From a virus: a DNA stretch of 25,540 bases. Within the stretch, counting starts at the first letter, position 1. The number at the start of each line of letters is the position of its first letter. The translations under genes and the position numbers were made by a program. Below the pieces are notes generated by a model. That model saw only the letters and a list, made by a program, of their open reading frames with translations. It had not been told where the DNA came from and did not search any database. Positions 2,206-19,931 of the stretch are shown piece after piece. The DNA lies in IMG/VR virus record IMGVR_UViG_3300024520_000456, positions 1 to 25,540 of that record. One strand, 5' to 3'.

Positions 2206-2222
2206 CATTAAGGAGTATTAAC

Positions 2223-3726: not shown

Positions 3727-4065
3727 ATGAGAAAAGTAATCTCTTTAATTATTGGGTTGTTGCTTATAACAAGCCTGTCTTATGCTCAAGCTACAAGAAA
3801 TGCGTCCAATAGTACGATTCAGTTTAATCGTACAAACTTCGGAAATGTTGGAGTTCATGGACTCGCTGTTTTCGGAAACCCTGGATATATATCAATGAGA
3901 GCGTTAGAAGCAACAGATGGTGACACTCCTGCTGATTATTATCTATGGGTTGATCACACAGGTGACCTGTGTATTGCGTCTCATGCAACGGTTGTTGCTG
4001 ATTCGGGATTCCCTGATGGAGACTGGAATAGCATAACTTGTAGTGTGGTTGGTAGTCAGTCGTAG
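3727..4065 (+). CDS. Small exported protein with Sec signal peptide, virion block
   Basis: The product is 112 residues. I place the start at ATG 3727, just after AAAGGAGG. The first 20 residues are a clear Sec signal: MRK, a run of Ile/Leu/Val, then SLSYA|Q. The mature part is about 92 residues, beta-rich, with two cysteines (GDLCIAS and SITCSVV) placed like a disulfide pair. It contains YYLWVDHTGDL, a style common in phage fibre or head-fibre domains. It directly follows the capsid gene, the usual place for a head fibre or decoration gene, but the export signal is unexpected there. Function unknown. Confidence 0.7.
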   Translation: MRKVISLIIGLLLITSLSYAQATRNASNSTIQFNRTNFGNVGVHGLAVFGNPGYISMRALEATDGDTPADYYLWVDHTGDLCIASHATVVADSGFPDGDWNSITCSVVGSQS

Positions 4066-4079
4066 TTTAACTTGGGGGC

Positions 4080-4102
4080 GGGGAAACTCGTCCCCATTTT
4101 AT
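4080..4102 (+). terminator. Short GC hairpin with T-rich tail before the ligase-like gene
   Basis: GGGGA (4080-4084) pairs with TCCCC (4091-4095) around a 6-base loop and is followed by ATTTTAT. It may be a weak intrinsic terminator closing the capsid operon. It also occupies the place where a ribosome binding site for the gene at 4104 would be expected, and no AGGAG-like sequence is visible there. Confidence 0.45.
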
Positions 4103-4103
4103 C

Positions 4104-5393
4104 ATGAACAAGTTATATAAACTAACTCTCATAGGTATTTTAATAATACCGTTATCTTCGATCTTTCCGCATCTATTGAAGATAGTCCCTAAGTGGCAAT
4201 TTCTACTTGGGATGGCAGGCACTGACGTCTGGTATATACAACTGATCTTTTTGTTGATCTTTATTTCACTAGGTCTTTCAACTGTTCTTTGGAAATTTAA
4301 CAAGTTTGTCTCGATATTTACAGTCTCTTGTATGTTCTCGACCCTTTTAATGAGACATCAAGACATACGGGATATTATGGCTCTTTTTGTTGTTCAGTGT
4401 ATGTGTCTCTTAGCTTACGGGATAAGTAAGATGACAAGAGGCCAGAGGGTGAATATTTTAAGAGCTATAGTCCTTGTCTTTATAGCTCAGTCAGCTTTAG
4501 TCATAGCACAGTATTTTAACGCTGACCCGTTCTTTGATTATATAGGCAACACGTCAATGGACGACACTGTAGGACTGGTAGGAAGTCACAATCAGGTAGG
4601 TTTGTTTCTAGCAGATGTTGGACCGTTGATTGTGATCTTTTATCCGTACTTTATTCCGATTTTAATCTTTTGTCTTTGGTGTTCGACTACGAGTTCAGCA
4701 TGGGCTGGATGTATCGTAGCATCGTTGTTAGCGGCATTTTACATTGGAAAACGGAAGTTTGTGTTCCTATTTGCATTATTCTTGATTTGTACCGGAATTT
4801 ACGTTCAGAAATTTGAATCAGTGACAGTACAGACATTTAAAGAGCGGGCGAGGTTAGTAGAGCACACAGTAAGATCAGTTCTTAACGAGAAGATAGTTAC
4901 TGAGGTAGTACATTCTCAGATGGGATTAGTTAAACAAGTCATTACTTGTAATCAGTTCTTCGGGTTCGGATTAGGAAAGTTTATAAGGATTTCACCAAGA
5001 AGCGAGGGTCAGTATTGGGTAGTAAGTCACGACAAGATTATAGAAGACAAGGAAGACACGTTAACAGGGATGGTTCCGCAACACAGGTATTCACACGCTC
5101 ACAACGATTATGCGGAGGTGTTCTTTGAAATGGGTTGGTTTGGTATTATTGCTTTGGTTTTGTGTATTGGTGATTTTATTCGAAGGTTCATAGTTAGCAA
5201 GAAAAGCAAGTTATTGATTGTATCGTTCTCGTGCGTAGTAGCACATTTAGTAACAGCGTTAGGAATATTTACAGTACATACAGCGGTGAGTGGATTAATG
5301 CTAATTTTATTTTGGGGAATTACAGAAGGGGAATTAAGAGAGGTGGACAATGGGGAGACGTGGTGGAAACAGGGGGTTCCCAAAATGGTATAA
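4104..5393 (+). CDS. O-antigen ligase / polymerase-like membrane protein
   Basis: The product is 429 residues with about 10 hydrophobic segments spread along the chain. A large soluble loop lies at about residues 235-340, before the last membrane segments. The loop ends in SHAHNDYAEVFFEMGWFGII (about 330-349), the hallmark of the Wzy/WaaL (O-antigen ligase/polymerase) superfamily, where 'H-x-H-N-x-Y-L/A-E-x-x-x-E-x-G' precedes a membrane helix. An earlier SHNQVGLFLAD (about 161-171) also fits this family. These enzymes act in the inner membrane, joining or polymerising lipid-linked glycans at the periplasmic face. Here the gene is inserted between capsid and tail genes, after a hairpin and without a clear ribosome binding site. 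Serotype conversion or superinfection exclusion is my inference. Confidence 0.75.
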   Translation: MNKLYKLTLIGILIIPLSSIFPHLLKIVPKWQFLLGMAGTDVWYIQLIFLLIFISLGLSTVLWKFNKFVSIFTVSCMFSTLLMRHQDIRDIMALFVVQCMCLLAYGISKMTRGQRVNILRAIVLVFIAQSALVIAQYFNADPFFDYIGNTSMDDTVGLVGSHNQVGLFLADVGPLIVIFYPYFIPILIFCLWCSTTSSAWAGCIVASLLAAFYIGKRKFVFLFALFLICTGIYVQKFESVTVQTFKERARLVEHTVRSVLNEKIVTEVVHSQMGLVKQVITCNQFFGFGLGKFIRISPRSEGQYWVVSHDKIIEDKEDTLTGMVPQHRYSHAHNDYAEVFFEMGWFGIIALVLCIGDFIRRFIVSKKSKLLIVSFSCVVAHLVTALGIFTVHTAVSGLMLILFWGITEGELREVDNGETWWKQGVPKMV

Positions 5394-5547
5394 GGGAAAA
5401 TTAATTAATGAGGCATTTGGAGATTTCTGGTATGGGGAAAGAGAAGGTAAGACTTGGTTAAGGGAAGGTAAACTAACAGATCGTGCCAACAGTGACACGT
5501 TAACAGATAAAGAACGTCAAGATATGGTACAAAGGAGGATGAGGTGA
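5350..5547 (+). CDS. Small charged hypothetical protein
   Basis: The product is 65 residues, rich in Arg, Lys, Gly and aromatic residues (MGRRGGNRGFPKWYKGK, FGDFWYGEREGKTWLREGK). The ATG at 5350 lies 44 bases inside the end of the ligase-like gene but has a GAGGTGG ribosome binding site at good spacing. The stop overlaps the GTG of the next gene, so translational coupling is likely. I recognise no family. Size and charge would suit a nucleic-acid-binding or minor head protein, but that is only a guess. Confidence 0.55.
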   Translation: MGRRGGNRGFPKWYKGKLINEAFGDFWYGEREGKTWLREGKLTDRANSDTLTDKERQDMVQRRMR

Positions 5548-5891
5548 AAAAGTTTTTATTCATAGGACTAATGTTACTAATGGCTGTTCCGGCTTATGCA
5601 GGACTCAAATCCAATGCATACCAAAGATGGCTTTCAGTAACAACAGAAACAACGATTACACTCCCGTATACGTCAAGGGATGTGTTTATACAAAACGGTT
5701 CATCAATAGACATTTGTGTAAACATAATCGGCGGGACTACAGGGGATGGGGCAACGGCCTGTGATGAGCCTGGAGCTTTCCAACTAGATGGAGCCTCTAG
5801 CCTGCAAATCAGGGACTTTCGTACTGACGCAATAAGTTTAAAGAGTACGGCAGCAGTTGCAAGTCCAATTACGGTATTGGTGACTTATTAA
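5544..5891 (+). CDS. Small exported protein with Sec signal peptide
   Basis: The product is 115 residues with a GTG start behind AAAGGAGG. Residues 1-19 form a textbook Sec signal ending AVPAYA|G. The mature part has about 96 residues and is beta-rich (repeated Thr/Ser/Val pattern, ending SPITVLVTY). It has exactly two cysteines, in IDICVNI and TACDEPG, spaced for an intramolecular disulfide. It looks like a small beta-sandwich capping or decoration domain. It lies between the ligase-like gene and a set of small head-tail-region proteins. Function unknown. Confidence 0.7.
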   Translation: MKKFLFIGLMLLMAVPAYAGLKSNAYQRWLSVTTETTITLPYTSRDVFIQNGSSIDICVNIIGGTTGDGATACDEPGAFQLDGASSLQIRDFRTDAISLKSTAAVASPITVLVTY

Positions 5892-6145
5892 TGCTTGAGC
5901 AAAGACGGGTACAGCCAGCGATATTTGACCGTAAACCTAAAGTCGTCTTAGACAAGAGATTTAAGTTTGCCAGAGAGTTAACACTAGGTGACAAGGGACA
6001 ATTAAAGGCTTTATTACGAATTAAGGATATAGAGCTTGTCAAGGATGCAGATTTAAACGAAATAAAGAAGTTTATAATTGTCATAGACAGAGCAGAGGTT
6101 TTTGAACCACAAGAGGTTAGAGTTGACAAAATTAAAGTCATTTAG
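5891..6145 (+). CDS. Small tandem-family protein 1
   Basis: The product is 84 residues, charged, with no signal peptide. It contains RELTLGDKGQLKALLRIKDIEL, then a second strand-rich segment (KKFIIVIDRAEVFEP). The 'L-x-G/E-x-G-x-L + alternating strand' pattern recurs in the next three genes, suggesting a family of small beta proteins made by tandem duplication. Such short genes between capsid and adaptor genes are common in phages and mostly uncharacterised. Its ATG overlaps the previous stop by one base. Confidence 0.6.
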   Translation: MLEQRRVQPAIFDRKPKVVLDKRFKFARELTLGDKGQLKALLRIKDIELVKDADLNEIKKFIIVIDRAEVFEPQEVRVDKIKVI

Positions 6146-6326
6146 AGACGTTACATTGGAACCCAGCTTCACGACGTTTGAAAACAGAGTACAAGGGCTT
6201 TCAGACCTTCGGGTGGGTGAAGCTTTAGAGTCAATTGTTAACTACGAGGTTGTAGAGAAAACAAAAAGCTTCACGATCTTAAAAATACACTTTGTCCATC
6301 TAGTCAACAATAAGAGGCAGTTCTAA
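6123..6326 (+). CDS. Small tandem-family protein 2 (TTG start)
   Basis: I choose the TTG at 6123 because AAGAGG lies at good spacing just upstream, giving 67 residues and a 23-base overlap with the preceding gene. A TTG at 6102 in the same frame is the alternative. The core DLRVGEALESIVNYEVVEK followed by KSFTILKIHFVHLV matches the strand pattern of its neighbours (VGE/GDKG, then alternating hydrophobics). No catalytic residues are visible. The stop overlaps the next ATG by one base. Confidence 0.55.
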   Translation: MTKLKSFRDVTLEPSFTTFENRVQGLSDLRVGEALESIVNYEVVEKTKSFTILKIHFVHLVNNKRQF

Positions 6327-6553: not shown

Positions 6554-6738
6554 CATTTTTATCCAATTTACCGGAGTTCGAGATTCCTGTCAGTTCTGCG
6601 ACAGAGCTAGAGAATAAAACAATAGACGAGAAGGTTAGAGGTCAGATGGTCTTTGAGGTGATTGGAAAGGGCGAGGGAAACATTCGCATAAGAGTTAAGA
6701 GTATTGCGTTAGACGATAACAAAAGGATCATGTCGTGA
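6550..6738 (+). CDS. Small tandem-family protein 4 (GTG start)
   Basis: The product is 62 residues with a GTG start at 6550 behind GAGGAGA. ENKTIDEKVRGQMVFEVIGKGEGN followed by IRIRVKSIAL repeats the acidic-turn plus two-strand layout of the three genes before it. It is the shortest member. The stop region overlaps the GTG of the adaptor-like gene, so it may be coupled to it. Confidence 0.55.
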   Translation: MTFLSNLPEFEIPVSSATELENKTIDEKVRGQMVFEVIGKGEGNIRIRVKSIALDDNKRIMS

Positions 6739-7688
6739 TTAACTTTACAGAGATTGTAACACAGGTAGGGCGTATGCTTCAACGGTCAGGTGACGAAGAC
6801 TATGCTACGTTAATTAAAGACTGGGTGAATTGGACTCATCAGTTCGCAGGGCAGGCTTATGATTACTTCGCTGAGTTGGAGGGTATACATAACTTTTCAA
6901 CGGTAGCGAGCACAGAAGAGTATTTCATGCCTACAAGGTTCGACAAGCCATTAAGAATTGTAGATTTGACTAATGATATAAAGCTGACTATTAAGACCGA
7001 GGAAGAGTATTATGATGAGAATTTAGCTATTATTTCAGCGGCCTCTGAAGAGTCAGGTCCGAGTATTGCAAGGATGTACGGAGTTAGTGGGGTTATTAAA
7101 CAGATAAGCACGTCAGGGGACACGTTACAGGCAAAGAGTTCTGCAAGTGAAAATACGAATGTTACAGTAAGAATAGAAGGTTATGTAGACTCCGCATTGA
7201 CCATTCTGGACTTTGAGGACATAACGGTCACTGGCACGTCTGCAACAACAGCGACATCTCCCAAGACGTTTTATAAAATCTTACATCACAGCAAGGACAT
7301 AGATTCTTCTGGATATATCACGCTAGAAGATTCGTCTAATAATGATCTGTCTATTCTTTCCTCAATCCAGAGGGTTGCGTATCACAAAGTAATGAAGTTA
7401 GGCAAGATTCCAGATCAAGCTAATTCAATGAGGGTTTTACTTAAACAAGCCCCTAAGAAACTAGTAGATAATAACGACTACCCGTTTATAGATGCAGATG
7501 ACTTTTTTATTCTAGGTTCAGCAGCATACGGACTTTTACAGGAAAAGGAAACGATTGATCGAGGGAATGTTTTATTTTCAAAAGCCAACGAGAAGTTAAC
7601 ACTTTTAATAGCTGATAGACAGCGACGTTTAGGGCCAGACTTTCAACACAAGATAGTGAGTCCTTTGATTCAGTCACATAGAGCTTAA
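6735..7688 (+). CDS. Putative head-tail adaptor / connector protein
   Basis: The product is 317 residues with a GTG start. The N-terminal 60 residues (FTEIVTQVGRMLQRSGDEDYATLIKDWVNW in outline) and the C-terminal part (DADDFFILGSAAYGLL, ETIDRGNVLFSKANEK) are helical, as in adaptors that bind the portal (T7 gp11, P22 gp4). Those are about 166-196 residues long. The extra length here is a central beta-rich insert at about 105-215 (NVTVRIEGYVDSALTILDFEDITVTG in outline, Thr/Ser-rich) that looks like an immunoglobulin-like domain. It contains no cysteine and no signal peptide. It sits directly before the nozzle-like gene, the expected order. Confidence 0.55.
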   Translation: MINFTEIVTQVGRMLQRSGDEDYATLIKDWVNWTHQFAGQAYDYFAELEGIHNFSTVASTEEYFMPTRFDKPLRIVDLTNDIKLTIKTEEEYYDENLAIISAASEESGPSIARMYGVSGVIKQISTSGDTLQAKSSASENTNVTVRIEGYVDSALTILDFEDITVTGTSATTATSPKTFYKILHHSKDIDSSGYITLEDSSNNDLSILSSIQRVAYHKVMKLGKIPDQANSMRVLLKQAPKKLVDNNDYPFIDADDFFILGSAAYGLLQEKETIDRGNVLFSKANEKLTLLIADRQRRLGPDFQHKIVSPLIQSHRA

Positions 7689-9323
7689 ATGAAAAAACTA
7701 TTTTTATCCTTAGCGATAATCTGTTCTTTGACAACAGCCTTGTTTGCACAACAAGGACTTCAGAAGGTAAGGATAGACGATTTCTCCGGAGGAATGAACA
7801 GCCGGTCGGTAGTTAACAAGCTAGAGCCGAACGTAGCCGCTTCTGTAGTTAACGTAGACATTAGCAGACCTGGAGAGCTTTCTACCCGCAAGGGTGAGAG
7901 TCTTTTTGTAAGGGACGTCGGCAGCACGTTCTTTCGTGGATTAGGAAGATTTGATCCTGATATGGCTACGTCTTATCTAGTAGCTGCATCAAGAGCTAGC
8001 GTTATCTCTGCACTCTCGACAGATACACAGTGGAGAATTGAAAACTCAAGCAAAGACTTAACCGAAGGACAAGACACTCAGTTTGTTCAAGCTGACAAGG
8101 TTTTGTTTGTTTTGAATGGACAGGACAACACCTCTTGGTGGGATGGAACAGTTTACAACGCTGGAGGAACATATCCTACCTCACCTCCCAAGGCAAAGTA
8201 TGGAGCATGGCTTAAAAACTATCTTTTTCTAGCAGGAGAGCCGACACAACTTGATTGGGTATACTTTTCAAACAACTTAGTTCCTACAGTCTTCTCAGCA
8301 ACAGACATCATCAAGATAAACACCGGAGACGGTCAGGCAATTCAATGGCTAGAACCGTTTAGGATAGATGAGGTTATTGTTTATAAAGAACGAAGCGTCT
8401 TTCTTTTAGATACAACTTCAACGTCTGATCCTTTAGATGCTGATAGTGGCTGGACAGTACAACCTATCTCAAAGACGATTGGTTTAATCGCTCCACGATC
8501 TGTGGTTAACATTGGTAACGATCATTGGTTTTTATCAAGCAATCCGATAGCTGTTAGAAGTCTTGCAAGATCAGAGTTTGACAAGATTCTAGTAGACAGA
8601 GTTTCTGATCCAATACAGGACGTGTTTGACGGTACTGGTTCTCTAGTAATCAATCAATCAAAGATTCAGAAAGCAGCAGCGATACTCTTTGATAATAAGT
8701 ATATCATTGCTATTCCGACAGGAACATCTGCGGTCAACAATACAGTCTTTGTTTTTGACTTCTTGATAAACGGTTGGTATCGAATAGACGGTTGGTACCC
8801 GACAAACTGGTTGATCTTTGATGAAAGACTTTTCTTCACAGATGCAAATGACGGACGTGTAATGGAAGCTTTCGCTAATAACACAGGTGACTTTGTTATC
8901 GGACCGTCCAACATAAACAGTGCTAATCCAGACCAACCTATTTGTTTTGAATATTTATCGAGAGAGATCGACTTTACAAATCAAGAAGGTGTCGGGCCTG
9001 AGAATTTTAAAATGCCAGACGCAATCGAGGTTGAGTTTGAGCCTACGGGAAACTATGACGCAATCGTCTATGTCAATGTTGATCAGAACGGATGGGCTTC
9101 TGTAGGCTCTGTTAATCTAGCAGGAAATTCTTTAACTTTACCAGTAACACTTCCAGCAACGATAGGAAATGGTGGGGTTTCAAGAAAGACTTTTCAGATA
9201 CAAAGTAAGAACGAGTTCAGGCGAATACAGATACGAATAAGACAGTGCGGTTTAAGTCAACAGGTCAAGTTTAGACGGGCTACGATTTTTGCCAGACCAA
9301 AGAAGTGGAGACGAGAGAATTGA
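7689..9323 (+). CDS. Tail nozzle / tail-tube-like virion protein with signal peptide
   Basis: The product is 544 residues. After a 20-residue Sec signal (MKKLFLSLAIICSLTTALFA), the mature protein begins with VRIDDFSGGMNSR, then LEPNVAASVVNVDISRPGEL and STRKGESLF. The 'DFSGG-N-R ... N-V-DI-x-PG-x-L-x-x-RKG' opening is typical of phage nozzle/hub proteins. The body has propeller-like repeats (WWDGTVYNAGG, NYLFLAGEPTQLDWVYFSN, NDHWFLSSN, GWYRIDGWYPTNWL). The mature part has two cysteines (PICFEY, RQCGLS). The start abuts the adaptor-like gene and matches the adaptor-nozzle order of T7-type phages. A signal peptide on a tail-core protein is very unusual, because nozzles are normally assembled in the cytoplasm. 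Confidence 0.6.
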   Translation: MKKLFLSLAIICSLTTALFAQQGLQKVRIDDFSGGMNSRSVVNKLEPNVAASVVNVDISRPGELSTRKGESLFVRDVGSTFFRGLGRFDPDMATSYLVAASRASVISALSTDTQWRIENSSKDLTEGQDTQFVQADKVLFVLNGQDNTSWWDGTVYNAGGTYPTSPPKAKYGAWLKNYLFLAGEPTQLDWVYFSNNLVPTVFSATDIIKINTGDGQAIQWLEPFRIDEVIVYKERSVFLLDTTSTSDPLDADSGWTVQPISKTIGLIAPRSVVNIGNDHWFLSSNPIAVRSLARSEFDKILVDRVSDPIQDVFDGTGSLVINQSKIQKAAAILFDNKYIIAIPTGTSAVNNTVFVFDFLINGWYRIDGWYPTNWLIFDERLFFTDANDGRVMEAFANNTGDFVIGPSNINSANPDQPICFEYLSREIDFTNQEGVGPENFKMPDAIEVEFEPTGNYDAIVYVNVDQNGWASVGSVNLAGNSLTLPVTLPATIGNGGVSRKTFQIQSKNEFRRIQIRIRQCGLSQQVKFRRATIFARPKKWRREN

Positions 9324-10513
9324 AAAAGCTAATTATAGCTATGTTGTTTCTTACATTAACTACTGTAAAAGCCTACGCAGGTACAGTTGAGACGTTCTTT
9401 CTTTACGGACCTACTAGCACACTTACTGATACGAATCTAAACGGTAACTTTAACAATATACGAAACACGCTTAACGGTGATTTAGATAATGAGAATGTCA
9501 ATGTGTCAGGGTTCAGATTTGTCGAGATTTTAGGTTCTTTACCAGCCGCAGGAATCGTAGGAAGAGTCGTGTTCTTAACGACAGACGGAACGCTTCACTA
9601 CGACGACGGCACACAGTTTAACTCGGTAGTAGTTTTTAAAGGTACGGTAGCACAAGGACAGATAGTCTATCACGATGGTACAGACTTTGTGTTAAGAGAT
9701 GCAGGACCGAATCATTATCCGTTAGTGACTAGAGGTGTCGGAGACGATCCTGAGTGGGCACAACTAGAGTTAGCTTCAGCGGTGACAGGTGAGTTGCCTT
9801 TAATTAACGGTGGCACAGATACAGCGTTAGTTGACCCTGGTAGAGACGGTCTTTTATATTGGAATAATACAAGTAATAAAGTAGCTTTTTTAAATGCACC
9901 GATTACGTCTGACACATTACAGTTTTCTTCGATTATCACAGTAGACGGAACTTGGACATCACCAGGAGGTGTTACACAGATTCATGTAGCGATGGTAGGC
10001 GGTGGCGGAGGCGGTGGTGGTGCTGATGGTGCAAATCCCGGTGGCGGTGGAGGTGGTGGTGCAGGATGTGAATTTATGTTTACAACAACAGAGAATACAG
10101 GATATGTGATAGATATTGGAGCTGCTGGAATAGGCGGGAATACTTCAGGAGGAGATGGGACAGCAGGAGCGGAGACAGCCTTTGACACAGGAGGATTAGA
10201 TATAACAGCAGCAGGTGGTTCTTTAGGTAGTGGAATTGGTGGAGGCGGAGTTGGTGGGGCAGGAGGAACAACTACGAAAGATGCAGGAGCAGCACCGGCG
10301 GCAGGTACTTCTTGTGAGGTAGGTGGTGCAGGGGCTAATAAAGGTGGTGGCGACGGAGGCGGTGGTGGTGGTTCAATGTTAGGTCAAGGCGGTGCAGGCG
10401 GGTCAGCGGGAGGTGGGTCAGCAGGAACGTTCGGTGGTGGTGGTGGAGGAGCAGATGCAGCGAGCAATACAGGTGGTGCAGGTGGAGTAGGTATCGTAAA
10501 AATATCTTGGTAA
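9320..10513 (+). CDS. Exported tail fibre / adhesin with poly-glycine C-terminal domain
   Basis: The product is 397 residues. I choose the TTG at 9320, which overlaps the preceding TGA and gives a standard signal peptide (MKKLIIAMLF...VKAYA|G); a GTG five codons upstream is possible. The N-terminal half is fibre-like (NGNFNNIRNTLNGDL, TGELPLINGGTDTALVDPG, GLLYWNNTSNKV). From about residue 210, GTWTSPGGVTQIHVAMVGGG opens a long glycine-rich region with several runs of 6-8 Gly, ending GGVGIVKISW. This resembles glycine-rich tail-fibre tips and gp38-type adhesins with polyglycine helices. There are two mature cysteines (GAGCEF, GTSCEV). It probably binds a host surface receptor. Confidence 0.7.
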   Translation: MKKLIIAMLFLTLTTVKAYAGTVETFFLYGPTSTLTDTNLNGNFNNIRNTLNGDLDNENVNVSGFRFVEILGSLPAAGIVGRVVFLTTDGTLHYDDGTQFNSVVVFKGTVAQGQIVYHDGTDFVLRDAGPNHYPLVTRGVGDDPEWAQLELASAVTGELPLINGGTDTALVDPGRDGLLYWNNTSNKVAFLNAPITSDTLQFSSIITVDGTWTSPGGVTQIHVAMVGGGGGGGGADGANPGGGGGGGAGCEFMFTTTENTGYVIDIGAAGIGGNTSGGDGTAGAETAFDTGGLDITAAGGSLGSGIGGGGVGGAGGTTTKDAGAAPAAGTSCEVGGAGANKGGGDGGGGGGSMLGQGGAGGSAGGGSAGTFGGGGGGADAASNTGGAGGVGIVKISW

Positions 10514-10519
10514 ACAAAA

Positions 10520-10822
10520 ATGATTTGTCACCTTGAGAATAAAGACGGATATGTTTACGCATATATATGTTGGGAGCTAGTTAATGAAGACGGATTAAGG
10601 GATGGCGATATAGTTAAGGATCACATATATATAGACGACTTATGGATTCACGAAGAATACAAAACAAAGTTTGGGGAAAGAAAGATCATCTTAGATTTAT
10701 CACAAGAGATTTTAAATAACGAACTTTCTGAAAATACGAAATACGTATATTGGAACAATATGAAGAGAGGGTACAAATTATCAAGATTATTTGATAAGGA
10801 ATATTTCAGGAGGAAGAAATGA
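10520..10822 (+). CDS. Small GNAT-fold-like protein
   Basis: The product is 100 residues. A central IYIDDLWIHEEYKTKFGERKIILDL resembles the beta4-alpha3 part of GNAT acetyltransferases ('I-D-x-L-W/x-V-H-x-x-Y-R-x-x-G'), and the C-terminal KYVYWNNMKRGYKLSRLF fits the following strand and helix. The acetyl-CoA loop is degenerate (KTKFGER rather than R/Q-x-x-G-x-G/A), so it may be a non-catalytic or divergent form. It lies between the glycine-rich fibre and the first ejection-like protein, with a 4-base overlap with the latter. No clear AGGAG precedes its ATG. Confidence 0.45.
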   Translation: MICHLENKDGYVYAYICWELVNEDGLRDGDIVKDHIYIDDLWIHEEYKTKFGERKIILDLSQEILNNELSENTKYVYWNNMKRGYKLSRLFDKEYFRRKK

Positions 10823-11718
10823 GCAGACCTAAGACGCCACAGATAAACATACCAGCAGCACCTAAGCTACCTACGGCATCAGAGTTATTTCAGCAATCAC
10901 TAGCGTTTAATCAAGAGAACTTTCCTTTAGCGACAGGTGCGAGGGAGGGTGCGTTAGGAGATATATCAACTCCTGAGTCTACAACAGCGTTCTTTGAGGG
11001 TTTTCAACCTACGAGTCTTGAAGAAGCGTTAGCCCATGAACAGTTTAAGCAGTTGTTTCCAGAAGGTGAAGCAGGGACATTTGAGAGATCGACAAATCAA
11101 TTACTGTCTCAGCGTGGACTGCAAGGTACTGCAATAGGGCCAGAGTTAATCGGTAGAGCAGAGCAAGACGCACAGATACAGGTAGGCGAGTTTTTAAGAG
11201 GACTGGCAGAGCAAAGAGCTGTTGGAAACCTAAATGCAAGGCTAGGGATAAACCCTATTAATGACTTGGGCCCACAAGCACAGCTTGGAGGACAACAGTC
11301 TAGGCAACAAGGTAATTTTGATTTTCAAACAGGACTAGCTAAAGCAGAGGCAGAATTTCAAAATGCGTTAAATGAGTTTAATAGAAAACAAGCCTTTTCA
11401 AAAACTATAGGCACTATTGGCGGTTTAGCTGGCGGTGCATTGTTTGGCCCGTTTGGAGCTGCTGCTGGTGGAGCATTGGGTGGCGGGTTGTCTGGTGGCG
11501 GATTAGAAGGAGCACTGGGTGGGGGGCTTGGTGGTGCAACTCAAGGTGGACTCTTCGGAGGGCCAGTTGGATCATCTCAGCGTCAAAGTGTAGGACAGGC
11601 ACAACCAGTATTTCCAATCTCTCAAGGGAACGTTGCAGGGACAGGTCTTTTTGGATCAAAGTTTGGTGGACAGACTCAAAGTGAGATATTAGGTGGTAAC
11701 ACAAGTAGATTTATATAA
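10819..11718 (+). CDS. Putative DNA-ejection (internal core) protein 1
   Basis: The product is 299 residues, with ATG behind CAGGAGGAAGAA. The N-terminal half is Gln/Glu/Pro-rich and helical. Around residues 190-245 there is a glycine/alanine-rich hydrophobic stretch (TIGGLAGGALFGPFGAAAGG, then further GG-x-GG units) suited to membrane insertion. The C-terminus is Gly/Gln/Ser-rich. Size, composition and position before two larger helical proteins match the gp14-type protein of podovirus ejection machines, which inserts in the outer membrane during infection. It has no signal peptide and no cysteine. It resembles the family by layout, not by a diagnostic motif. Confidence 0.6.
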   Translation: MSRPKTPQINIPAAPKLPTASELFQQSLAFNQENFPLATGAREGALGDISTPESTTAFFEGFQPTSLEEALAHEQFKQLFPEGEAGTFERSTNQLLSQRGLQGTAIGPELIGRAEQDAQIQVGEFLRGLAEQRAVGNLNARLGINPINDLGPQAQLGGQQSRQQGNFDFQTGLAKAEAEFQNALNEFNRKQAFSKTIGTIGGLAGGALFGPFGAAAGGALGGGLSGGGLEGALGGGLGGATQGGLFGGPVGSSQRQSVGQAQPVFPISQGNVAGTGLFGSKFGGQTQSEILGGNTSRFI

Positions 11719-11733
11719 TCAAGGAGCAATATA

Positions 11734-13026
11734 ATGGGCAGATTCGTAGGTTCAGAATTTACAGTAAAACCTCCTAGTGACTTCTTTAATGAGCAGATAT
11801 TAAAGCAGAAACAGCAACAGAAAGAGTTTCAGCAGGAACAACTTTCTCAGAAACAAGAGTTTCAACAACAGTTAGAGGTCGCAAAGTTTAGAGCTAAAGA
11901 AGCAAAAGACCTTGCACAATTCAAATTTGATATTCAACAGAAAAATCCTCTTACACAATTTTTAAATACATTTAAAGTTGCAGATGCCCTAGAAAAGGCA
12001 GGTAATTCTGAAGCAGCGAGGGCTTCGATAGTTGCCGGTGGTTTTGGAAATGTTGTTCAGGATTTTGATAAACAACAAGAGAATGTTGGCGGAAAGTTTG
12101 GTCAACTTCCTCAAACACAAGAAGTCCAACCTTCAAGACAAGACATAGAAGCACAGCAATCTTTAGCTACCAAATCTGATCTATTTCCTACGAAGTTTAA
12201 ACAAGAAAGTTCTCTTCTAGGCGGGACCCGTCTTACTCCGACCGAGATAAAGTCTGAACAAGGGATTAAAAGAGCAAAAGCAGTTGAAACAGAAACAGCC
12301 GAAAGCGTAAAGAAGTCGTTTGGTTTAACAGATGAATTTACGAAAGCTAATCGAAACTATTTAAGAACTGTGGCATTGTTTAGCGGGATAGTTGGCCAGT
12401 TAAAAGGAAAACAAAAAGAGCAAGGTGGTTTGGGACTGTTTCAAGGTGCATTTGGTAAGGTGGGAACAAAGCTTAAAGTGCCTGGCTTTGGCAGAACATC
12501 TTCTTTTCCTGGTCAACTTGATGAGACAGCTATTGGTTTAAATAGTATTTTAACAGGACAAAATCGAGTAATTAAATCTGTCGTAGAAATGATACGAGGA
12601 ACGCTACCAACAGAGTTTGATCCACCGGATTTTGCTGCAAGTAAAATTGCACAAAGCATTACGAATACTTTTAAACTTAACAAATCTTTTGAACTTGGTA
12701 TTTTATCTCCAGATCAGATTGAGTCTTTATCTGCCGGTGATCCCAACTTTGACTTGGCGGGTAAGTTAGATCAGATTGTATCACTATCACCAGAAGATAA
12801 TGCAGAGTTAGAAAAACTTATTGAAGGAATTTTATCAACTCCTGCAACTGCTAAAAGAACACTAGAACCTGAGAGAAACAGAACTTCAGGTGCAAGGGTT
12901 GCAAGCCCTGGTCTTGGCAGGGGTCTTGATGCTAGAAAACAAGTAGAGAAAGCGAAGCAATTAAGAAAACAAAATCCCAATATGTCTAAAGAAGAAATAA
13001 TTAGGAGGATTAAGGGTGGCAGATGA
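11734..13026 (+). CDS. Putative DNA-ejection (internal core) protein 2
   Basis: The product is 430 residues, with ATG behind CAAGGAGCAATATA. Residues 18-70 form a Gln/Lys/Glu-rich coiled coil (many FQQ and KQ repeats). The remainder is helical and soluble, with a basic C-terminus (QVEKAKQLRKQNPNMSKEEI). There is no cysteine and no signal peptide. As the middle of three consecutive long, helical, low-aromatic proteins between tail and fibre genes, it fits the gp15-like member of podovirus ejection proteins, which forms a periplasmic tube. This assignment rests on context and composition. Confidence 0.55.
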   Translation: MGRFVGSEFTVKPPSDFFNEQILKQKQQQKEFQQEQLSQKQEFQQQLEVAKFRAKEAKDLAQFKFDIQQKNPLTQFLNTFKVADALEKAGNSEAARASIVAGGFGNVVQDFDKQQENVGGKFGQLPQTQEVQPSRQDIEAQQSLATKSDLFPTKFKQESSLLGGTRLTPTEIKSEQGIKRAKAVETETAESVKKSFGLTDEFTKANRNYLRTVALFSGIVGQLKGKQKEQGGLGLFQGAFGKVGTKLKVPGFGRTSSFPGQLDETAIGLNSILTGQNRVIKSVVEMIRGTLPTEFDPPDFAASKIAQSITNTFKLNKSFELGILSPDQIESLSAGDPNFDLAGKLDQIVSLSPEDNAELEKLIEGILSTPATAKRTLEPERNRTSGARVASPGLGRGLDARKQVEKAKQLRKQNPNMSKEEIIRRIKGGR

Positions 13027-14749
13027 GTTCACGTTAAAGGATTTTGAGGACGAATTTAATGAATCGGATTTTGAAGAAAGTTTGCCTCAATTTATAGGAA
13101 GTCAGTTTGGAAGAGCGGTAGAGAAAACTCGCACAGAAGGAATTGGCCCAATAACAGGTGGAATAAATATTGCATTGGGTGGTCTTCCCAAAGCTGGATT
13201 AGAAAAAGTCAGTCCTAGAGCAGCCGAAGCAATATTCCCAAAAGCAGAAACATTCACTGGCAAGGTAGCAGAAGGTGCTTTTGGTATAGCTGGATTCTTA
13301 AGAGGTGTGGCTGTGAAAGCCGGCAGTCATCTTTCTAAACTAATATTGCCAAAGATAACGACTCCAACATTAAAAGGCATCAGCCCAGCGGCACAGACAG
13401 CAAGAACTCTTGGTAGAGATGCTATTAAGTTTGGAACAGCAGGTGCATTACAAACACCGGAAAATGAGCAGGGAGATTTTATCGCTCCACGTCAAAGAGC
13501 TTTTCAAGCGACGCTTGGGGCAACAGCAGGGCCAATAGGATTTGGTGCAGGAAGACTTATTAGTAAGGGTGCTAAAGGTGTAAGCAATCTTGCAGGAGCT
13601 ATTAAGAACTCAATAGATAGAAATGGTGCGTCTATAACACAGCCTGACTTTGTTAGAACGACATTAGCACCAAAGCTTAATAATTTATTTCAATCGTCAT
13701 TACAAAAGTTTGATGATAATTTTCAGAAGTTTGCTATTAGAAAAATGAGAGTTCCTAAAGAACAGGTCGAACATATTGCCAATCGTGGCACAAATGTTGT
13801 AACACAAGCTACCAGTCAGTCTGGTGGGAATGTTCAAGGGGTACTAAGTACGGCAGATGACGCTTTAGCTAGTCAACAGAAAGCAGTAGATTCTTTATAT
13901 GAAAATTCTTTAAATAGTATTCAAGCAAATGTAAATCCAAGAAGTGCGTTAGCATTTGCAAAGAACAAGCTAACTGCATTAAGATTTAGAACACTTCAGG
14001 GAGAAAGAACTGATCTAGCAAAATCTATCAGTAGAAACAAAGCTCTTGGTGTTTTAGATGACTTCTTTGAACAAAACAGAGTGACGGGAATACAAACAAG
14101 AGCAACGGCGACACCTGCTGATATAAACAAAGAACAGTTTATCTTTTGGAGAGATTCTATAAGCAAATCTATGCGAGGAGCGTCTGATTCTGAAAGGCGC
14201 ATATTAAAACAGTTCTCAGATGCATTTCATAAAGATGCAGAAAGATCTGGGTTTAAGGGGATCATTGATGCAAGAGATAATTTTGCCAATTTACAGAACA
14301 CTATAAGCCTTAGGGACAAAGTTACAGAACAGCAATTAAACAAAGCTTTTAAATTAACAAAGGCACAAGCGAACAATATTTCACAGCTAGAGAAGAAACT
14401 GGGGATTGAGTTGCTTAATCCTTCAAAAGATATTGTTTCTGGAAGGACACTAGAACAGAAGCTATTAACACAAAAGTTAGATGATGCTGTTTTAGGAGAA
14501 AGTGAATTTTTTGCTAAACAGTTAGATCAAGGATTAGATAAGGCAAAAACTGGAACAATCAAACAGGGATTAAAAGATTTATTAGGATCAGATGATGCTG
14601 TTAATCAAATTATAACGGATTTGGAGAGTTTTAGATTTCTTCAAACAGGGAAGCGTAGAGCACTGCAGGGTGGTGCAGCAGTCGGAGGAGCATTAGCTCT
14701 TCGCAAGTTTGGATTGTTGGGCGGTGGATTCGGTGGTCAAGATCAATGA
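13016..14749 (+). CDS. Putative DNA-ejection (internal core) protein 3
   Basis: The product is 577 residues, with a GTG start overlapping the previous gene by 11 bases behind AGGAGG. An acidic N-terminus (residues 1-25) precedes Gly/Ala-rich amphipathic stretches (GPITGGINIALGGLPKAG, EGAFGIAGFLRGVAV, GATAGPIGFGAGRLISK), then long coiled helices up to the Gly-rich C-terminus (GGAAVGGALALRKFGLLGG). This is the largest of the three, as gp16 is in T7, but I see no lysozyme/transglycosylase motif at the N-terminus. There is no cysteine and no signal peptide. It probably travels inside the capsid and enters the host envelope with the DNA. Confidence 0.55.
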   Translation: MADEFTLKDFEDEFNESDFEESLPQFIGSQFGRAVEKTRTEGIGPITGGINIALGGLPKAGLEKVSPRAAEAIFPKAETFTGKVAEGAFGIAGFLRGVAVKAGSHLSKLILPKITTPTLKGISPAAQTARTLGRDAIKFGTAGALQTPENEQGDFIAPRQRAFQATLGATAGPIGFGAGRLISKGAKGVSNLAGAIKNSIDRNGASITQPDFVRTTLAPKLNNLFQSSLQKFDDNFQKFAIRKMRVPKEQVEHIANRGTNVVTQATSQSGGNVQGVLSTADDALASQQKAVDSLYENSLNSIQANVNPRSALAFAKNKLTALRFRTLQGERTDLAKSISRNKALGVLDDFFEQNRVTGIQTRATATPADINKEQFIFWRDSISKSMRGASDSERRILKQFSDAFHKDAERSGFKGIIDARDNFANLQNTISLRDKVTEQQLNKAFKLTKAQANNISQLEKKLGIELLNPSKDIVSGRTLEQKLLTQKLDDAVLGESEFFAKQLDQGLDKAKTGTIKQGLKDLLGSDDAVNQIITDLESFRFLQTGKRRALQGGAAVGGALALRKFGLLGGGFGGQDQ

Positions 14750-14776
14750 TACAAATTCAAAACATAGGAGATAATC

Positions 14777-15064
14777 GTGGGATTACCATTACACGGTCAC
14801 GCACCGATAATACTTAATTATACGATTCAAAACACTGACACATGGGAAGAGGTCACTGGAACAGGTGTTAACGGGGTACGTAAATGGATGATAAAATTAC
14901 GAGAGAACAGTGCCAATACTTTTGACATAGCATTTGAGGACTCTGCACCATCTGTTCACATGAGTAATTCAGGAGTTGGTCTAAGCATGGACAATTGTGA
15001 CCTCCCGACAGTCTTTATTAGAGGGACTGCCACAGATGTCGTGGAAATCCTTTACTGGGGGTGA
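14777..15064 (+). CDS. Small virion-associated hypothetical protein
   Basis: The product is 95 residues, with a GTG start behind AGGAGATAATC. It appears beta-rich, with YTIQNTDTWEEVTGTG at the start, NTFDIAFEDSAPSVHMS in the middle and VFIRGTATDVVEILYWG at the end. The layout resembles small phage head or tail beta-sandwich proteins. Unlike its neighbours it lacks a signal peptide and has a single cysteine. It ends one base before the GTG of the large fibre gene, so it could be a base, adaptor or chaperone for the fibre, but no function is established. Confidence 0.6.
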   Translation: MGLPLHGHAPIILNYTIQNTDTWEEVTGTGVNGVRKWMIKLRENSANTFDIAFEDSAPSVHMSNSGVGLSMDNCDLPTVFIRGTATDVVEILYWG

Positions 15065-15065
15065 C

Positions 15066-18000
15066 GTGAAAAAATACTGTTTACTTATTTGTTTTCTTTT
15101 AACTACTTCTTTGGCGTATGCTCAGGGATTCGGACGACTGCATACTGACAAAGCCTACCAGATAAAAACCAATACCAACTTATTTGAACCATCCGGAATA
15201 CTTACCGCATCAGATAAAACTGTGCAGTTAGCTTTACAGTCTTTATCGGCATCTGCCGGCACAGCTTCCTCGTCTGCGTGGGATGCTCTAACAGATCCAT
15301 CCGGTAATAGCACAATAGCGATGGGGTCTAACAATACTTCATTTACAGGTGCGTGGGCGAATACATGGACATCAACTTTAGCGGGAACCTTCTTTACTCT
15401 TGACGGTGCAAATGGTCAGACAGCTCTAGACATTACTGACGGTAATTTACTAGTCAACGACACTTCGACATTTACAGGTACAGTTAATTTATCTGCTGAC
15501 TCAGTTAATACCATAACTGAGATTGCTACTGCATTGAAGAGTGGAGCTGATGGAACGGTAGTTACTGGTACTAAAGGAGACGCTGGAAAATGTGCTGAAT
15601 GGAATGCAGACGGCGACTTAGTAGAAGCGGCAAGTGCAGCGGCGTGTGGTACAGGAGGAACAACAAATTGGAGCACCATTGGCGATCCTACAAAAGATGG
15701 AACAATCGCAATGGGAACAAATAACAGTGCATTTACAGGAGCATGGGCCAATACGTGGACAAGCACCCTTTCTGGACAGTTTTTTGAGATTGATGGAGTA
15801 AATGGTCAAACAGCTTTAAATATATCTGATGGCAATTTATTGGTCAATGATACATCAACTTTCACTGGAACAGTTAATCTCTCGGCAGATTCGGTAAACA
15901 CTATAACAGAGATAGCGGCAGCATTAAAGACTGGTGCAGATGGAACACTAGCAACAGGAACAGCAGGATCAAATGGAGAGATTGCATCATGGAATACTGA
16001 TGGCGACGTTGTTGATTCAAACTTGATTGTGAGCACCTTAACTGATGAGCGTGTTTGTGAGTATGAATCTACTGGGACATTTTTAATCTGTGATACTGTT
16101 AAAGATGCTTCTGGTGCCTGTGCAAGCGGTTCTCTTTGCTCAGGAGGACATGAGCATGAGTTAAACAATATTCTTGATCCAACAGGAGATACCAGCATAA
16201 CAATGGCTGGAAACAATTTTGCTATGTCAGGTGCAAATACGTCTACATGGACAAGCTCATTAGCAGGAACTTTCTTTACACTCGATGGTGCCAATGGTCA
16301 GGTAGCTCTAGATATTACAGATGGAAACTTGTTGGTCAACGACACTTCTACTTTCACAGGGACAGTTAACCTTTCAGCTGACTCGGTAAATACTATAACA
16401 GAGATAGCAGCCGCATTAAAAAGCGGTTCAGATGGAACCGTAATAACTGGAACAGCTGGTGGAGACGGTCTTTGTGCCGAGTTTAATGCTGACGGAGATT
16501 TGGTGGAAGCTGCAAGTGCTGCAGCCTGTGGTACTGGAGGGACAACCACTTGGAGTGCAATAGGTGATCCCACAAAAGACAATGCAATTGCAATGGGAAC
16601 CAACAACACATCTTTTACAGGAAATTGGACAAACACATGGACGAGTGATTTATCCAGTACGATGTTTACTATTAACGGTGTTGATGGACAGATTGGTGTA
16701 GATATTATAGATGGTGATTTACAGATAGCAGATACAACAAACATTGGTGGTGCGGCAGGTGTTGCTCTTGATGCTACTAATGGAAAACTTGCAATGACAG
16801 GTCTTGGTAGTGGTGGCACAGCAGAAGATTTTACCATTGATTTAGACTTTTCTAATCTTATTCAGTTTAGCTCAACATCAGGTGCGGGTATACAGTCATC
16901 AATAGGTTATACTCAGGCAGATGGCGTTGCTATGAAGTGGGGCAATTTACCTGACTCACAAATTTCATATAATACTACTGGTCTTGATAGCCTTAATTTT
17001 GGCCTTGTTGTTGGAGCTGACACATCCTCTGGATATGTAAGTATTATGGAGCTTGCTGATGACAATGATGTTGATAGACAACCATTAGCAAATACTGCTA
17101 ATCCTACGTTAAGAATATACTCAAGTGATGCAGCTGTGGCTACGGACTATATTGAATTTTTCCATGATGCAGATAATGGGATTATTCAGATGGGTGCTGC
17201 GGATATAAACTTAGAAGCCACAACCGTAAAGATAGGAAACGGTGCAACAGCAGCAGGTATATTAGCAATTCAAGAAGATACAAACGACGGAGCAAACAAC
17301 GCTACATTTACAGTTCCCACTCTAGCAGCAGACACAGATTACATCTTACCACCTGACGACGGGGATAATACAGAAGTTCTACAGACAAACGGTACAGGAA
17401 CATTGACATGGGTAGCGAATGCTGGCGGAGGTACAACCTGGAGCGATATAGGTGATCCAACAACAAGCGGAAATATCGCAATGGGATCATATAACAGTGC
17501 CTTTGCAGGGGCATGGGCTAACACATGGACATCAAGTTTGGCGGGTGTTTTCTTTACCATTGATGGAGCTGACGGGCAGACGGCTCTAGCTGTCACAGAT
17601 GGTAATGTAGTTATTACAGACACGTTCACAGCCAATGGTATTAATGTCTTGGGCGATGGTGCTGATAACTTCTCGGTAGCATCAGATGGTATAGATATTT
17701 CTACCTCTGGTGTTGTAACTAACGGTTCTTTTGATAGCGACAATAATACTTTTACAAACATAGCTTTATCCGAAACAAATATTACTGCTGGCACTGGTAT
17801 AAATATTTCCACAGACACAGTATCTTATGATGGTACTTATGATGAGATAGGAAATGCTGGTACAACCGCAAGTATGGACTTTACGTCAAATACTAATACA
17901 TGGACAAGCTCACATGATGGGGCAACATTCTTTACAATATCTGATGGTGATACAGCGTTAGCCGCAGATACAGAGCTTCTAGAGTTAAACTTTTCAGCCG

Positions 18001-18263
18001 ATGGTGACGCCGAAGGTATATTCTTGATAATGAAAGACAATGTAGTTGATGAGGTTTTTAAGGTTGAAGCAGAAGGAAAGACTACAATAGGTAATGCAAC
18101 AACTAATTCTTCTGTTACATTTGGTAACGGGTATACGGCTGATCCATGTGGGACATTAGCTGAAGGAGCTTTATTTTATAATACAACTGCCGATGAGTTC
18201 TGCTATTGTGACGGATCTTCAGTAGACTTGAGAATAAAAGATTCAACAACAGCATGTTTCTAA
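15066..18263 (+). CDS. Large exported tail fibre with internal repeats
   Basis: The product is 1065 residues. I choose the GTG at 15066, behind GGGGGTG, because it gives a signal peptide (MKKYCLLICFLLTTSLAYA|Q) like those of neighbouring genes. The body holds repeats beginning at about residues 72, 202, 367, 496 and 792, each running 'W-x-x-I-GDPT-x-x-x-IAMG-x-N-x-F-G-x-W-x-NTWTS' then 'FF-x-IDG-x-(N/D)GQ'. A region at about 735-790 has FTVPTLAADTDYILPPDDG and LQTNGTGTLTW, seen in many phage fibres. The C-terminal 45 residues are Cys-rich (DPCGTL, EFCYCDG, TTACF). Mature cysteines total 12. It likely trimerises and contacts the host surface. Confidence 0.75.
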   Translation: MKKYCLLICFLLTTSLAYAQGFGRLHTDKAYQIKTNTNLFEPSGILTASDKTVQLALQSLSASAGTASSSAWDALTDPSGNSTIAMGSNNTSFTGAWANTWTSTLAGTFFTLDGANGQTALDITDGNLLVNDTSTFTGTVNLSADSVNTITEIATALKSGADGTVVTGTKGDAGKCAEWNADGDLVEAASAAACGTGGTTNWSTIGDPTKDGTIAMGTNNSAFTGAWANTWTSTLSGQFFEIDGVNGQTALNISDGNLLVNDTSTFTGTVNLSADSVNTITEIAAALKTGADGTLATGTAGSNGEIASWNTDGDVVDSNLIVSTLTDERVCEYESTGTFLICDTVKDASGACASGSLCSGGHEHELNNILDPTGDTSITMAGNNFAMSGANTSTWTSSLAGTFFTLDGANGQVALDITDGNLLVNDTSTFTGTVNLSADSVNTITEIAAALKSGSDGTVITGTAGGDGLCAEFNADGDLVEAASAAACGTGGTTTWSAIGDPTKDNAIAMGTNNTSFTGNWTNTWTSDLSSTMFTINGVDGQIGVDIIDGDLQIADTTNIGGAAGVALDATNGKLAMTGLGSGGTAEDFTIDLDFSNLIQFSSTSGAGIQSSIGYTQADGVAMKWGNLPDSQISYNTTGLDSLNFGLVVGADTSSGYVSIMELADDNDVDRQPLANTANPTLRIYSSDAAVATDYIEFFHDADNGIIQMGAADINLEATTVKIGNGATAAGILAIQEDTNDGANNATFTVPTLAADTDYILPPDDGDNTEVLQTNGTGTLTWVANAGGGTTWSDIGDPTTSGNIAMGSYNSAFAGAWANTWTSSLAGVFFTIDGADGQTALAVTDGNVVITDTFTANGINVLGDGADNFSVASDGIDISTSGVVTNGSFDSDNNTFTNIALSETNITAGTGINISTDTVSYDGTYDEIGNAGTTASMDFTSNTNTWTSSHDGATFFTISDGDTALAADTELLELNFSADGDAEGIFLIMKDNVVDEVFKVEAEGKTTIGNATTNSSVTFGNGYTADPCGTLAEGALFYNTTADEFCYCDGSSVDLRIKDSTTACF
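15279..17640 (+). repeat. Degenerate protein-level repeats in the fibre gene
   Basis: Repeat units start near 15279, 15669, 16165, 16551 and 17439. The first three share a 29-residue core (GNLLVNDTSTFTG to NTITEIA) at 15441-15527, 15831-15917 and 16323-16409. The three cores are identical in protein, yet copies 1 and 2 differ at 21 of 29 codons, all synonymously. The repeats are therefore clear in translation but weak at DNA level. Confidence 0.85.
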
Positions 18264-18274
18264 GAGAGGTGATT

Positions 18275-18685
18275 ATGAAAAAGTTTATAATAGCTCTAGG
18301 ATTAATACTGGTATTGCCAACAATAGTTTATTCTCAAGAAAGAAGGATAACGATTGATCAAACAGGCTGGACTATGGACCAAAAGGTAATGTTTATTTCA
18401 ATGGGTTACCGTATTGCGTTTCAGAATGGAGAGAATATTGTTCCCAAAGCGGATAAAAATGTTTTAGTTTTTCAGGGACTTTCTGAAGATACAGCAAGCA
18501 AGATTACGGCAACGACACTGATAGATGAGTTTAATGAGCATACAGCAGAACAGGCAATAGCAGAAGCGAATGAAGCAACTAGAGTGAATAATTTAAAAAC
18601 ATCCATCAGATCGAAATTGCGAAATGGAAGAGGATTAACTGATGCGGAAATTGATTTTCTTAACATTCCTAATCTTAGGGATTAG
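18275..18685 (+). CDS. Small exported protein next to the fibre
   Basis: The product is 136 residues. ATG 18275 is preferred for its GAGAGGTGATT ribosome binding site and because it opens the signal peptide MKKFIIALGLILVLPTIVYS|Q. The mature part (116 residues) has ITIDQTGWTMDQKVMFIS and then a helical, Glu/Ala/Thr-rich second half (EHTAEQAIAEANEATRVNNL), ending in RGLTDAEIDFLNIPNL. There is no cysteine. Size and position after a long fibre gene would suit a fibre chaperone or fibre-tip partner. Its last 44 bases also encode the signal peptide of the next gene in another frame. Confidence 0.65.
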   Translation: MKKFIIALGLILVLPTIVYSQERRITIDQTGWTMDQKVMFISMGYRIAFQNGENIVPKADKNVLVFQGLSEDTASKITATTLIDEFNEHTAEQAIAEANEATRVNNLKTSIRSKLRNGRGLTDAEIDFLNIPNLRD

Positions 18686-19931
18686 TACAACTGCATTTGC
18701 GACAGAACAGATTTTAGTAGCTGGTTCTGATGATACTCAGCAATCGACAAATACAGAATATTTGGCTATTGCAGGGAATGCTTCATTAAACCAGACAAAC
18801 TGGACAACAGGTGAAACAAATAGAAGGACCGTTATTCCTACGGCTGGTGTATTGTCAGAGTTGCGGGTAGAGGCAACAACCGGACCAGGCACAGGTAATA
18901 CTCGTGTTTATACAGTAATGATAGATGGCGGTGCGACGGCTCTTGCCTGTACTTTAAGTGCGGCAGAAACAAACTGTAATTCTGCTGCGACTACTTTAAC
19001 GGTATCAGCCAATGAAGCCGCAAGTCTACGAAATGCTGTAACATCCGCACCAGTATCAACAGGTGATGCTCATTGGTCTCTTAAGTTTACTCCAACAACG
19101 AGTAAAGAAACAATTATAATGGGTGGTTCGGCAGGAGCTTCAATAGGGACAACCTCAAATGTCAGAGCACCTATGCACGGCTTAAGACCAAGTGTAACAA
19201 GTTCAACTCCTAATACCTCAGTAAGATTCCCAACGGCAGGAACATTGGAAAACATGTACATTAAAGTAGAGACGGCTCCAGGTGCTGGGACTACAAGAGT
19301 ATTCCAATACGGGTCAGTTGATTGTACGATCTCAAACGCTGAGACTGAATGTAACAGTGATACTGATACACAGGCGGTTGTTGCAGGAGAAGATTATTGG
19401 TTAGAGATTGATGTAACAGGTACACCAGCGGCTAGTCAGGGAGAGTGGGGTGTTCAGTTTACTACAACAACAGACGGTGAATTTGTAATAGCCATGTCTA
19501 CAAATAATGCACATCATGGTTCAAGTACAGAATATTCTATATTAAGTGCAGGACAAAACACTTGGTCCGGTACCATAACTAATAGTGATAACTTGATGGG
19601 TGAGATGACTATCTCAGATATATATGTGAAGTTGGATAATGACCCAAGTTCTGGAGATAGTTACGCGTATACTCTCATGCAAGATGCAGGGGCAACCTTA
19701 TTAACATGTACTATATCAAACACCGAAACTGAGTGTAATGGTGCTTCCGATATTTCAATAAGCAATGATGAGTTAGGTTCCACAAGAGTTGTCCCTACCA
19801 GCAACCCTGACTCAGCAGATGCACAAATATCGTATTTAGGAAAGATAGCTGTGGGTGGTGGAGGAATCTCAGCAACAGGGACGATAGTCGAAGGTGGTTC
19901 TATTTTTGAAGGAAATGTGATTTTACAATAA
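18642..19931 (+). CDS. Exported three-repeat adhesin-like protein with paired cysteines
   Basis: The product is 429 residues. ATG 18642 opens the signal peptide MRKLIFLTFLILGISTTAFA|T, with AAGAGGA about 9 bases upstream. The mature protein has three beta-rich repeats: a 'G-x-L-x-x-(L/M)-x-(V/I)-x-(V/L)' strand, then 'R/A-V/Y-x-Y-T', then a cysteine hairpin. The hairpins are ACTLSAAETNC, DCTISNAETEC and TCTISNTETEC, six cysteines in all, probably one disulfide per repeat. The C-terminus is Gly/Ile-rich with a short repeat (GTIVEGGSIFEGNVILQ). It probably acts as a receptor-binding or surface-displayed protein of the virion. It is the last gene of the fibre block. Confidence 0.7.
   Translation: MRKLIFLTFLILGISTTAFATEQILVAGSDDTQQSTNTEYLAIAGNASLNQTNWTTGETNRRTVIPTAGVLSELRVEATTGPGTGNTRVYTVMIDGGATALACTLSAAETNCNSAATTLTVSANEAASLRNAVTSAPVSTGDAHWSLKFTPTTSKETIIMGGSAGASIGTTSNVRAPMHGLRPSVTSSTPNTSVRFPTAGTLENMYIKVETAPGAGTTRVFQYGSVDCTISNAETECNSDTDTQAVVAGEDYWLEIDVTGTPAASQGEWGVQFTTTTDGEFVIAMSTNNAHHGSSTEYSILSAGQNTWSGTITNSDNLMGEMTISDIYVKLDNDPSSGDSYAYTLMQDAGATLLTCTISNTETECNGASDISISNDELGSTRVVPTSNPDSADAQISYLGKIAVGGGGISATGTIVEGGSIFEGNVILQ

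Follow-up and report, generated by a model that had tools for sequence, protein, structure and literature searches.

To our knowledge, tailed phages build their entire virions in the cytoplasm. The virion block described here raises the question of how such a particle might be put together when the genes for its exposed parts begin like those of secreted proteins and the genes for its internal parts do not. The window, which is the whole stretch of DNA that was analysed, is a 25,540-base IMG/VR virus record of class linear, and such records are often a fragment. The genes given below with both end coordinates lie on its plus strand.

Signal peptides in the virion block

The block opens with a scaffold-like protein (679..1563), assigned from its position 5' of the capsid gene, and a small decoration-like protein preceding the capsid gene (2220..2792), also assigned from position. 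The major capsid protein (2813..3715) matches PHROG 371, major head protein (E=6.5e-22). The head-tail adaptor-like protein (6735..7688), for which a PHROG search gave zero matches, is named from its position before the nozzle, and the ejection-like internal proteins 1, 2 and 3 (10819..11718, 11734..13026 and 13016..14749) are likewise named from position.

The original prediction was that seven other genes of the block carry Sec signal peptides. Their coordinates and N-termini are as claimed, and all seven are of the Sec/signal peptidase I type. With a slash at the predicted cleavage site, the N-termini are MRKVISLIIGLLLITSLSYA/Q in a small protein (3727..4065, signal peptide residues 1-20), whose gene has the SD AAAGGAGG; MKKFLFIGLMLLMAVPAYA/G in a second small protein (5544..5891, start GTG, residues 1-19); MKKLFLSLAIICSLTTALFA/Q in the tail nozzle (7689..9323, residues 1-20, up to 23); MKKLIIAMLFLTLTTVKAYA/G in a fibre-like protein with a glycine-rich C-terminal domain (9320..10513, start TTG, residues 1-20); MKKYCLLICFLLTTSLAYA/Q in a large repetitive fibre/adhesin-like protein (15066..18263, start GTG, residues 1-19); MKKFIIALGLILVLPTIVYS/Q in the product of 18275..18685 (residues 1-20); and MRKLIFLTFLILGISTTAFA/T in a three-repeat adhesin-like protein (18642..19931, residues 1-20).

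Low predictor scores for most of the seven had been named as what would speak against the idea; a rule-based test was instead positive for six of the seven. The rule requires a K/R n-region, a hydrophobic core and small residues at positions -3 and -1. Of the E. coli controls it accepted 10 of 13 exported proteins and none of 19 cytoplasmic ones. Among 44 virion proteins of T7, P22 and lambda it likewise accepted none (a single rule-positive lambda protein, the outer-membrane protein Lom, is outside the 44), and its false-positive level on shuffled sequences was 1.5%. The signal of the 9320 protein is judged by inspection, since a single Lys in the c-region is all that makes the rule negative there. 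Only two of the 18 other window proteins were positive, both of them membrane proteins (4104 and 19941). N-termini of this kind are missing from the capsid, scaffold, adaptor and three ejection proteins, which agrees with the claim made for them.

Apart from the nozzle, the exported proteins are putative virion components, as suggested by their position and fibre-like sequence. The 9320 protein matches PHROG 863 (tail, 2.3e-20), PHROG 6202 (tail fiber, 4e-12) and Pfam Gly_rich_2. A signal peptide is also present in the 15066 homologue of contig G007 (8214-11534) and in a relative of the 18642 protein in G002, and no homologue of the 18275 protein was found in the first set of related loci. Extra fibre/depolymerase-like cassettes inserted in G007 and L020 are mostly signal-bearing, and one of them has a glycoside-hydrolase-123-like region.

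Conservation in the clade and identity of the nozzle

Searches with the capsid and the nozzle yielded a clade of about 24 related phage contigs, inside which the capsid protein is 70-83% identical. In four exported families, 53 of 57 homologues are rule-positive (18/18 for 3727, 14/14 for 5544, 13/16 for 7689 and 8/9 for 9320), against 0 of 92 in nine families of scaffold, capsid, adaptor, ejection and neighbouring proteins, these related sequences being non-independent tests. Signal peptides occur in none of the homologues of the scaffold-like (0/17), decoration-like (0/18), capsid (0/20) and adaptor-like (0/16) proteins or of ejection-like protein 1 (0/9). Ejection-like proteins 2 and 3 have none either, as is also the case for homologues of the former in L004, L006, L008 and L009 and of the latter in L002, L004 and L008. 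One failure in the 7689 family is L010, a distant, 25%-identical, signal-less outgroup nozzle; the other failures are within the clade, and their N-termini remain basic at the start and hydrophobic over a long stretch. Homologues without the N-terminal segment were sought as evidence to the contrary, and the segment proved to be kept; the split between internal and external parts recurs in the related contigs.

Outside the clade the picture changes. In 12 loci whose capsid proteins are distantly related (34-38% identity), the rule passes one long gene (L031, 341 aa) and one short gene (L066), and the ligase-like gene described below, sought in the same 12 loci, is absent from all. Three annotated phages have capsid or nozzle proteins that are related; the pattern is absent in two of them, and HTVC023P has two signal-like genes 3' of its capsid gene. 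The signal-peptide trait and the ligase gene are specific to the clade.

Judged from sequence, export of the exposed virion parts through Sec is very probable. At the level of prediction there is strong support for the claim that exposed parts leave the cytoplasm and internal parts stay, a split specific to this clade; among the outcomes offered with it, namely periplasmic completion, assembly after lysis or surface display, the sequence does not choose.

The nozzle deserves separate treatment. The 7689 protein had been called nozzle-like, and its predicted fold identifies it as a true nozzle. A sequence search against PDB returned chance matches only, so that a fold search was needed. The best Foldseek matches of its model (pLDDT 64) are phage nozzles, those of Pa223, VP1, SU10, P22 (gp10), PhiM1 and T7 (gp12), with E values of 7e-16 for the Pa223 tail, 3e-11 for P22 gp10 and 2e-7 for T7 gp12. 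In fold alignment the nozzles reach Z 20-24, yet unrelated propellers reach Z about 19. The model thus has the nozzle beta-propeller fold of P22 gp10 and T7 gp12.

A signal-like N-terminus is found in 24 of 24 clade nozzles (the window and 23 homologues), including the most distant ones (L131, L134 and L135; 41-45% identity). Mean identity in the family is 36% in the signal columns versus 57% in the mature part, and D/E is absent from every nozzle signal aligned; the property of a signal is therefore kept while its letters drift. The nozzle gene begins at the stop codon of the adaptor-like gene, in an order conserved in the clade and usually without an SD of its own, which is consistent with coupled translation.

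These features bear on the idea of partial export, in which a fraction of the fibres and small proteins would go to the cell surface or be set free, there to block receptors or rival phages, and unexported copies would build the virion. The adhesin- or fibre-like character of several exported proteins fits this idea, but the nozzle is left unexplained: it is a structural ring without a receptor role, for which surface display makes no sense. Moreover, a search for SD-backed internal starts from which an unexported, cytosolic form could arise found none conserved. Partial export is rated as unlikely.

Cysteine pairs, a ligase-like enzyme and the host

Mature exported proteins of the window contain 2, 2, 2, 2, 12, 0 and 6 Cys (in the order 3727, 5544, 7689, 9320, 15066, 18275 and 18642), and the scaffold, capsid, adaptor and ejection proteins contain zero. 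The six Cys of the 18642 protein form three C-x8-C pairs. In the 5544 family (n=15), the two Cys (Cys58/Cys73 in the window) are both present in 9 members, both missing in 6 and single in 0. In the 3727 family (Cys82/Cys105), both are present in 6, neither in 12 and one in 2 (Fisher p=0.001), statistics that overstate independence because the sequences share ancestry. Such paired gain and loss in two small exported families is as expected of disulfides. An even Cys count was rejected as a general test of export: it fits the window's exported proteins and fails for the nozzle family, most homologues of which have one conserved unpaired Cys, so that the disulfide argument does not extend to the nozzle. 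The crAss001 tail contains disulfides, and signal peptides are unmentioned there (PMC10172136); disulfides alone are therefore support for, and not proof of, extracytoplasmic folding.

It might be supposed that the hydrophobic N-termini have no relation to Sec and stay on the virion proteins, for example for membrane insertion at infection. Several tail proteins have hydrophobic N-terminal helices, and removal of the first 20 residues of P22 gp7 by a host protease (record annotation) is a precedent for N-terminal processing outside Sec. This explanation is improbable. Unrelated proteins, some of about 110 residues, share a K/R start that leads into a hydrophobic core and on to an A-x-A-like site, often with Q after it; that combination is the signature of a signal peptidase I substrate. 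The Cys pairs in the two small families also argue against it.

Between the two small exported genes lies a gene for a multi-pass O-antigen-ligase-like membrane protein (Wzy_C, WaaL/PglL-type; 4104..5393), which is found between exported genes in nearly all loci that have both flanks (L125 was not resolved). Enzymes of the Wzy_C superfamily work on the periplasmic side of the inner membrane. The Wzy_C profile is detected in 12 of 12 members of the gene-4104 family (E<=0.01), the window protein alone being under Pfam's cut-off. Sequence-profile matches in PDB are 9rmk, named oligosaccharyltransferase (6e-13), and WaaL 7tpg (2.7e-10); the higher score of 9rmk does not prove a PglL-type function. 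The model aligns with the WaaL fold at Z 20.7 and rmsd 4.0 over 293 residues. FtsW, which came first in plain Foldseek with weak scores, was discarded as the closest fold when a second alignment placed WaaL first. The 4104 protein resembles WaaL and PglL in sequence profile, fold and a conserved H-N-D motif, and differs from them in being encoded by a phage, within a late virion block.

The WaaL fold gives some support to a reading in which the exported genes other than the nozzle gene are not virion genes: they would convert the host surface, and the ligase-like gene would serve serotype conversion. The gtr conversion cassette of P22 and the integrase of one clade member (G001) speak for it as well. 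Nevertheless, the nozzle too bears a signal, the fibre-like and small exposed genes stand in the virion block in conserved order, and an integrase looked for in G000, G002, G003 and G007, which are possible fragments, was not found. Surface conversion is given a low probability, slightly below that of partial export.

The ligase-like gene, together with a small o-spanin-like lipoprotein (21178..21345; lipobox ITGC, from a lipobox scan with SD), whose spanin role is putative, suggests a host with an outer membrane. The Euryarchaeota archaeon K_DeepCast_300m was considered as host and rejected, the only genome-contig match being the phage contig L135 in that MAG. Tetranucleotide correlation of L135 with the other contigs of the MAG is 0.28-0.37, as compared with 0.53-0.76 among those contigs; because of this unlike profile, L135 is probably misbinned and gives no host.

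A proposed route of assembly

In the route that we propose, the capsid, scaffold, adaptor and ejection proteins would be made and assembled, and DNA packaged, in the cytoplasm. The nozzle, the fibres/adhesins and the small exposed proteins would pass through the host Sec translocon, lose their signals to signal peptidase I and fold outside the inner membrane, where disulfides would form in some of them and the phage membrane enzyme of WaaL/PglL fold could add glycan. Filled heads would meet the tail parts, and the particle would be completed, once the inner membrane has been breached by the lysis system. The analysis shows the sequences themselves, their conservation and restriction to the clade, the folds of nozzle and ligase, and the pairing of cysteines; from these we infer that export takes place, that signals are cleaved and glycan is added, and where and when assembly ends. 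Export followed by completion at lysis is given somewhat better than even chances. The fuller version, with two compartments, one for cytoplasmic head filling and one for a Sec-exported, disulfide-bonded and phage-ligase-glycosylated nozzle and fibres that join the heads only on mixing at lysis, is more tentative and falls somewhat short of even.

Periplasmic completion, in which filled heads would arrive at the inner membrane or pass through it ahead of lysis and whole virions would gather in the periplasm, draws on the same evidence for export (the rule and its conservation) as completion at lysis. It needs filled heads to be moved across a membrane, and we know of no route for a filled capsid across the inner membrane; among the genes of the clade, none suggesting capsid transport across a membrane was recognised. 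It is given the same low probability as surface conversion. Assembly at lysis needs the fewest extra assumptions among the outcomes. A point against it is the part that the nozzle of known short-tailed phages has in sealing the packaged head; here heads would have to retain their DNA nozzle-free until lysis.

The clade shares with P22 and T7 the gene order capsid-adaptor-nozzle-ejection proteins and the nozzle beta-propeller fold, whereas none of 24 virion proteins tested from these phages has a signal peptide and the clade's nozzle and fibres bear one. Coat proteins of the filamentous phages (Inoviridae) are exported via the host Sec system, and the clade is like them in passing virion proteins through Sec. 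Filamentous phages leave the cell by extrusion, without lysis, and fill no capsid beforehand; the clade consists of tailed phages with capsid, adaptor and nozzle, and the window, with its major head protein and nozzle, does not encode a headless and tailless extruded filament. Sec export of filamentous-phage virion proteins is the subject of a review (PMC4823517). Tailed phages already send endolysins through Sec (PMC6116005), including one with a canonical signal peptide (PMC8951688). Those are lysis enzymes, whereas the exported proteins of the clade are predicted virion components. No Sec-exported nozzle or fibre of a tailed phage is reported in the full-text literature searched, whose coverage leaves out most subscription journals and preprints.

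If real, the trait of this clade gives short-tailed phages that are ordinary in other respects an assembly route of a new kind. For annotation, it warns that a signal peptide is no ground for excluding a virion protein. Export of nozzle and fibres by a clade would, if true, be a second way of building the commonest kind of virus, and it would open three points to direct test: whether exposed parts fold in an oxidising compartment, whether phage tails are glycosylated and whether lysis is when particles are completed.

A ligase-like gene in the late virion block

An O-antigen-ligase-like membrane protein of WaaL/PglL fold is encoded by the phage itself at 4104-5393, in the late virion block, and this gene is kept throughout the clade. 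The product is a candidate enzyme for protein O-glycosylation or for modification of the host surface. Several clade members carry inserted genes directly after the ligase-like gene that look HNH-endonuclease-like by eye (3020-3643 in contig L098, 11269-11811 in L020, 9416-9916 in L025, and one in G006).

Fibre-like, adhesin-like and spanin-like proteins

Internal repeats that carry regularly spaced cysteine pairs are found in the products of 15066-18263, where C-x17-C occurs several times, and of 18642-19931, which has C-x8-C three times. The fibre cassette of L020 includes a gene (14145-18167) whose 1340-residue product bears a signal peptide, contains a region resembling glycoside hydrolase 123 and is possibly an exported depolymerase. 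At 21178-21345, close to where the late genes of the window finish, lies a gene for an o-spanin-like lipoprotein of 55 residues with a lipobox.

Lifestyle and distribution

An integrase is encoded in one clade member (G001, 15266-15700, minus strand), and thus at least one of these phages may be temperate. The clade phage contig L135 (VGTM01000014.1) has been placed in a Euryarchaeota MAG; its composition differs from that of the remainder, and therefore it is probably misbinned. In Pelagibacter phage HTVC023P (L093, 18264-20339), two neighbouring genes 3′ of the capsid gene have signal-peptide-like starts, and the signal-peptide trait may also extend, weakly, outside the clade.
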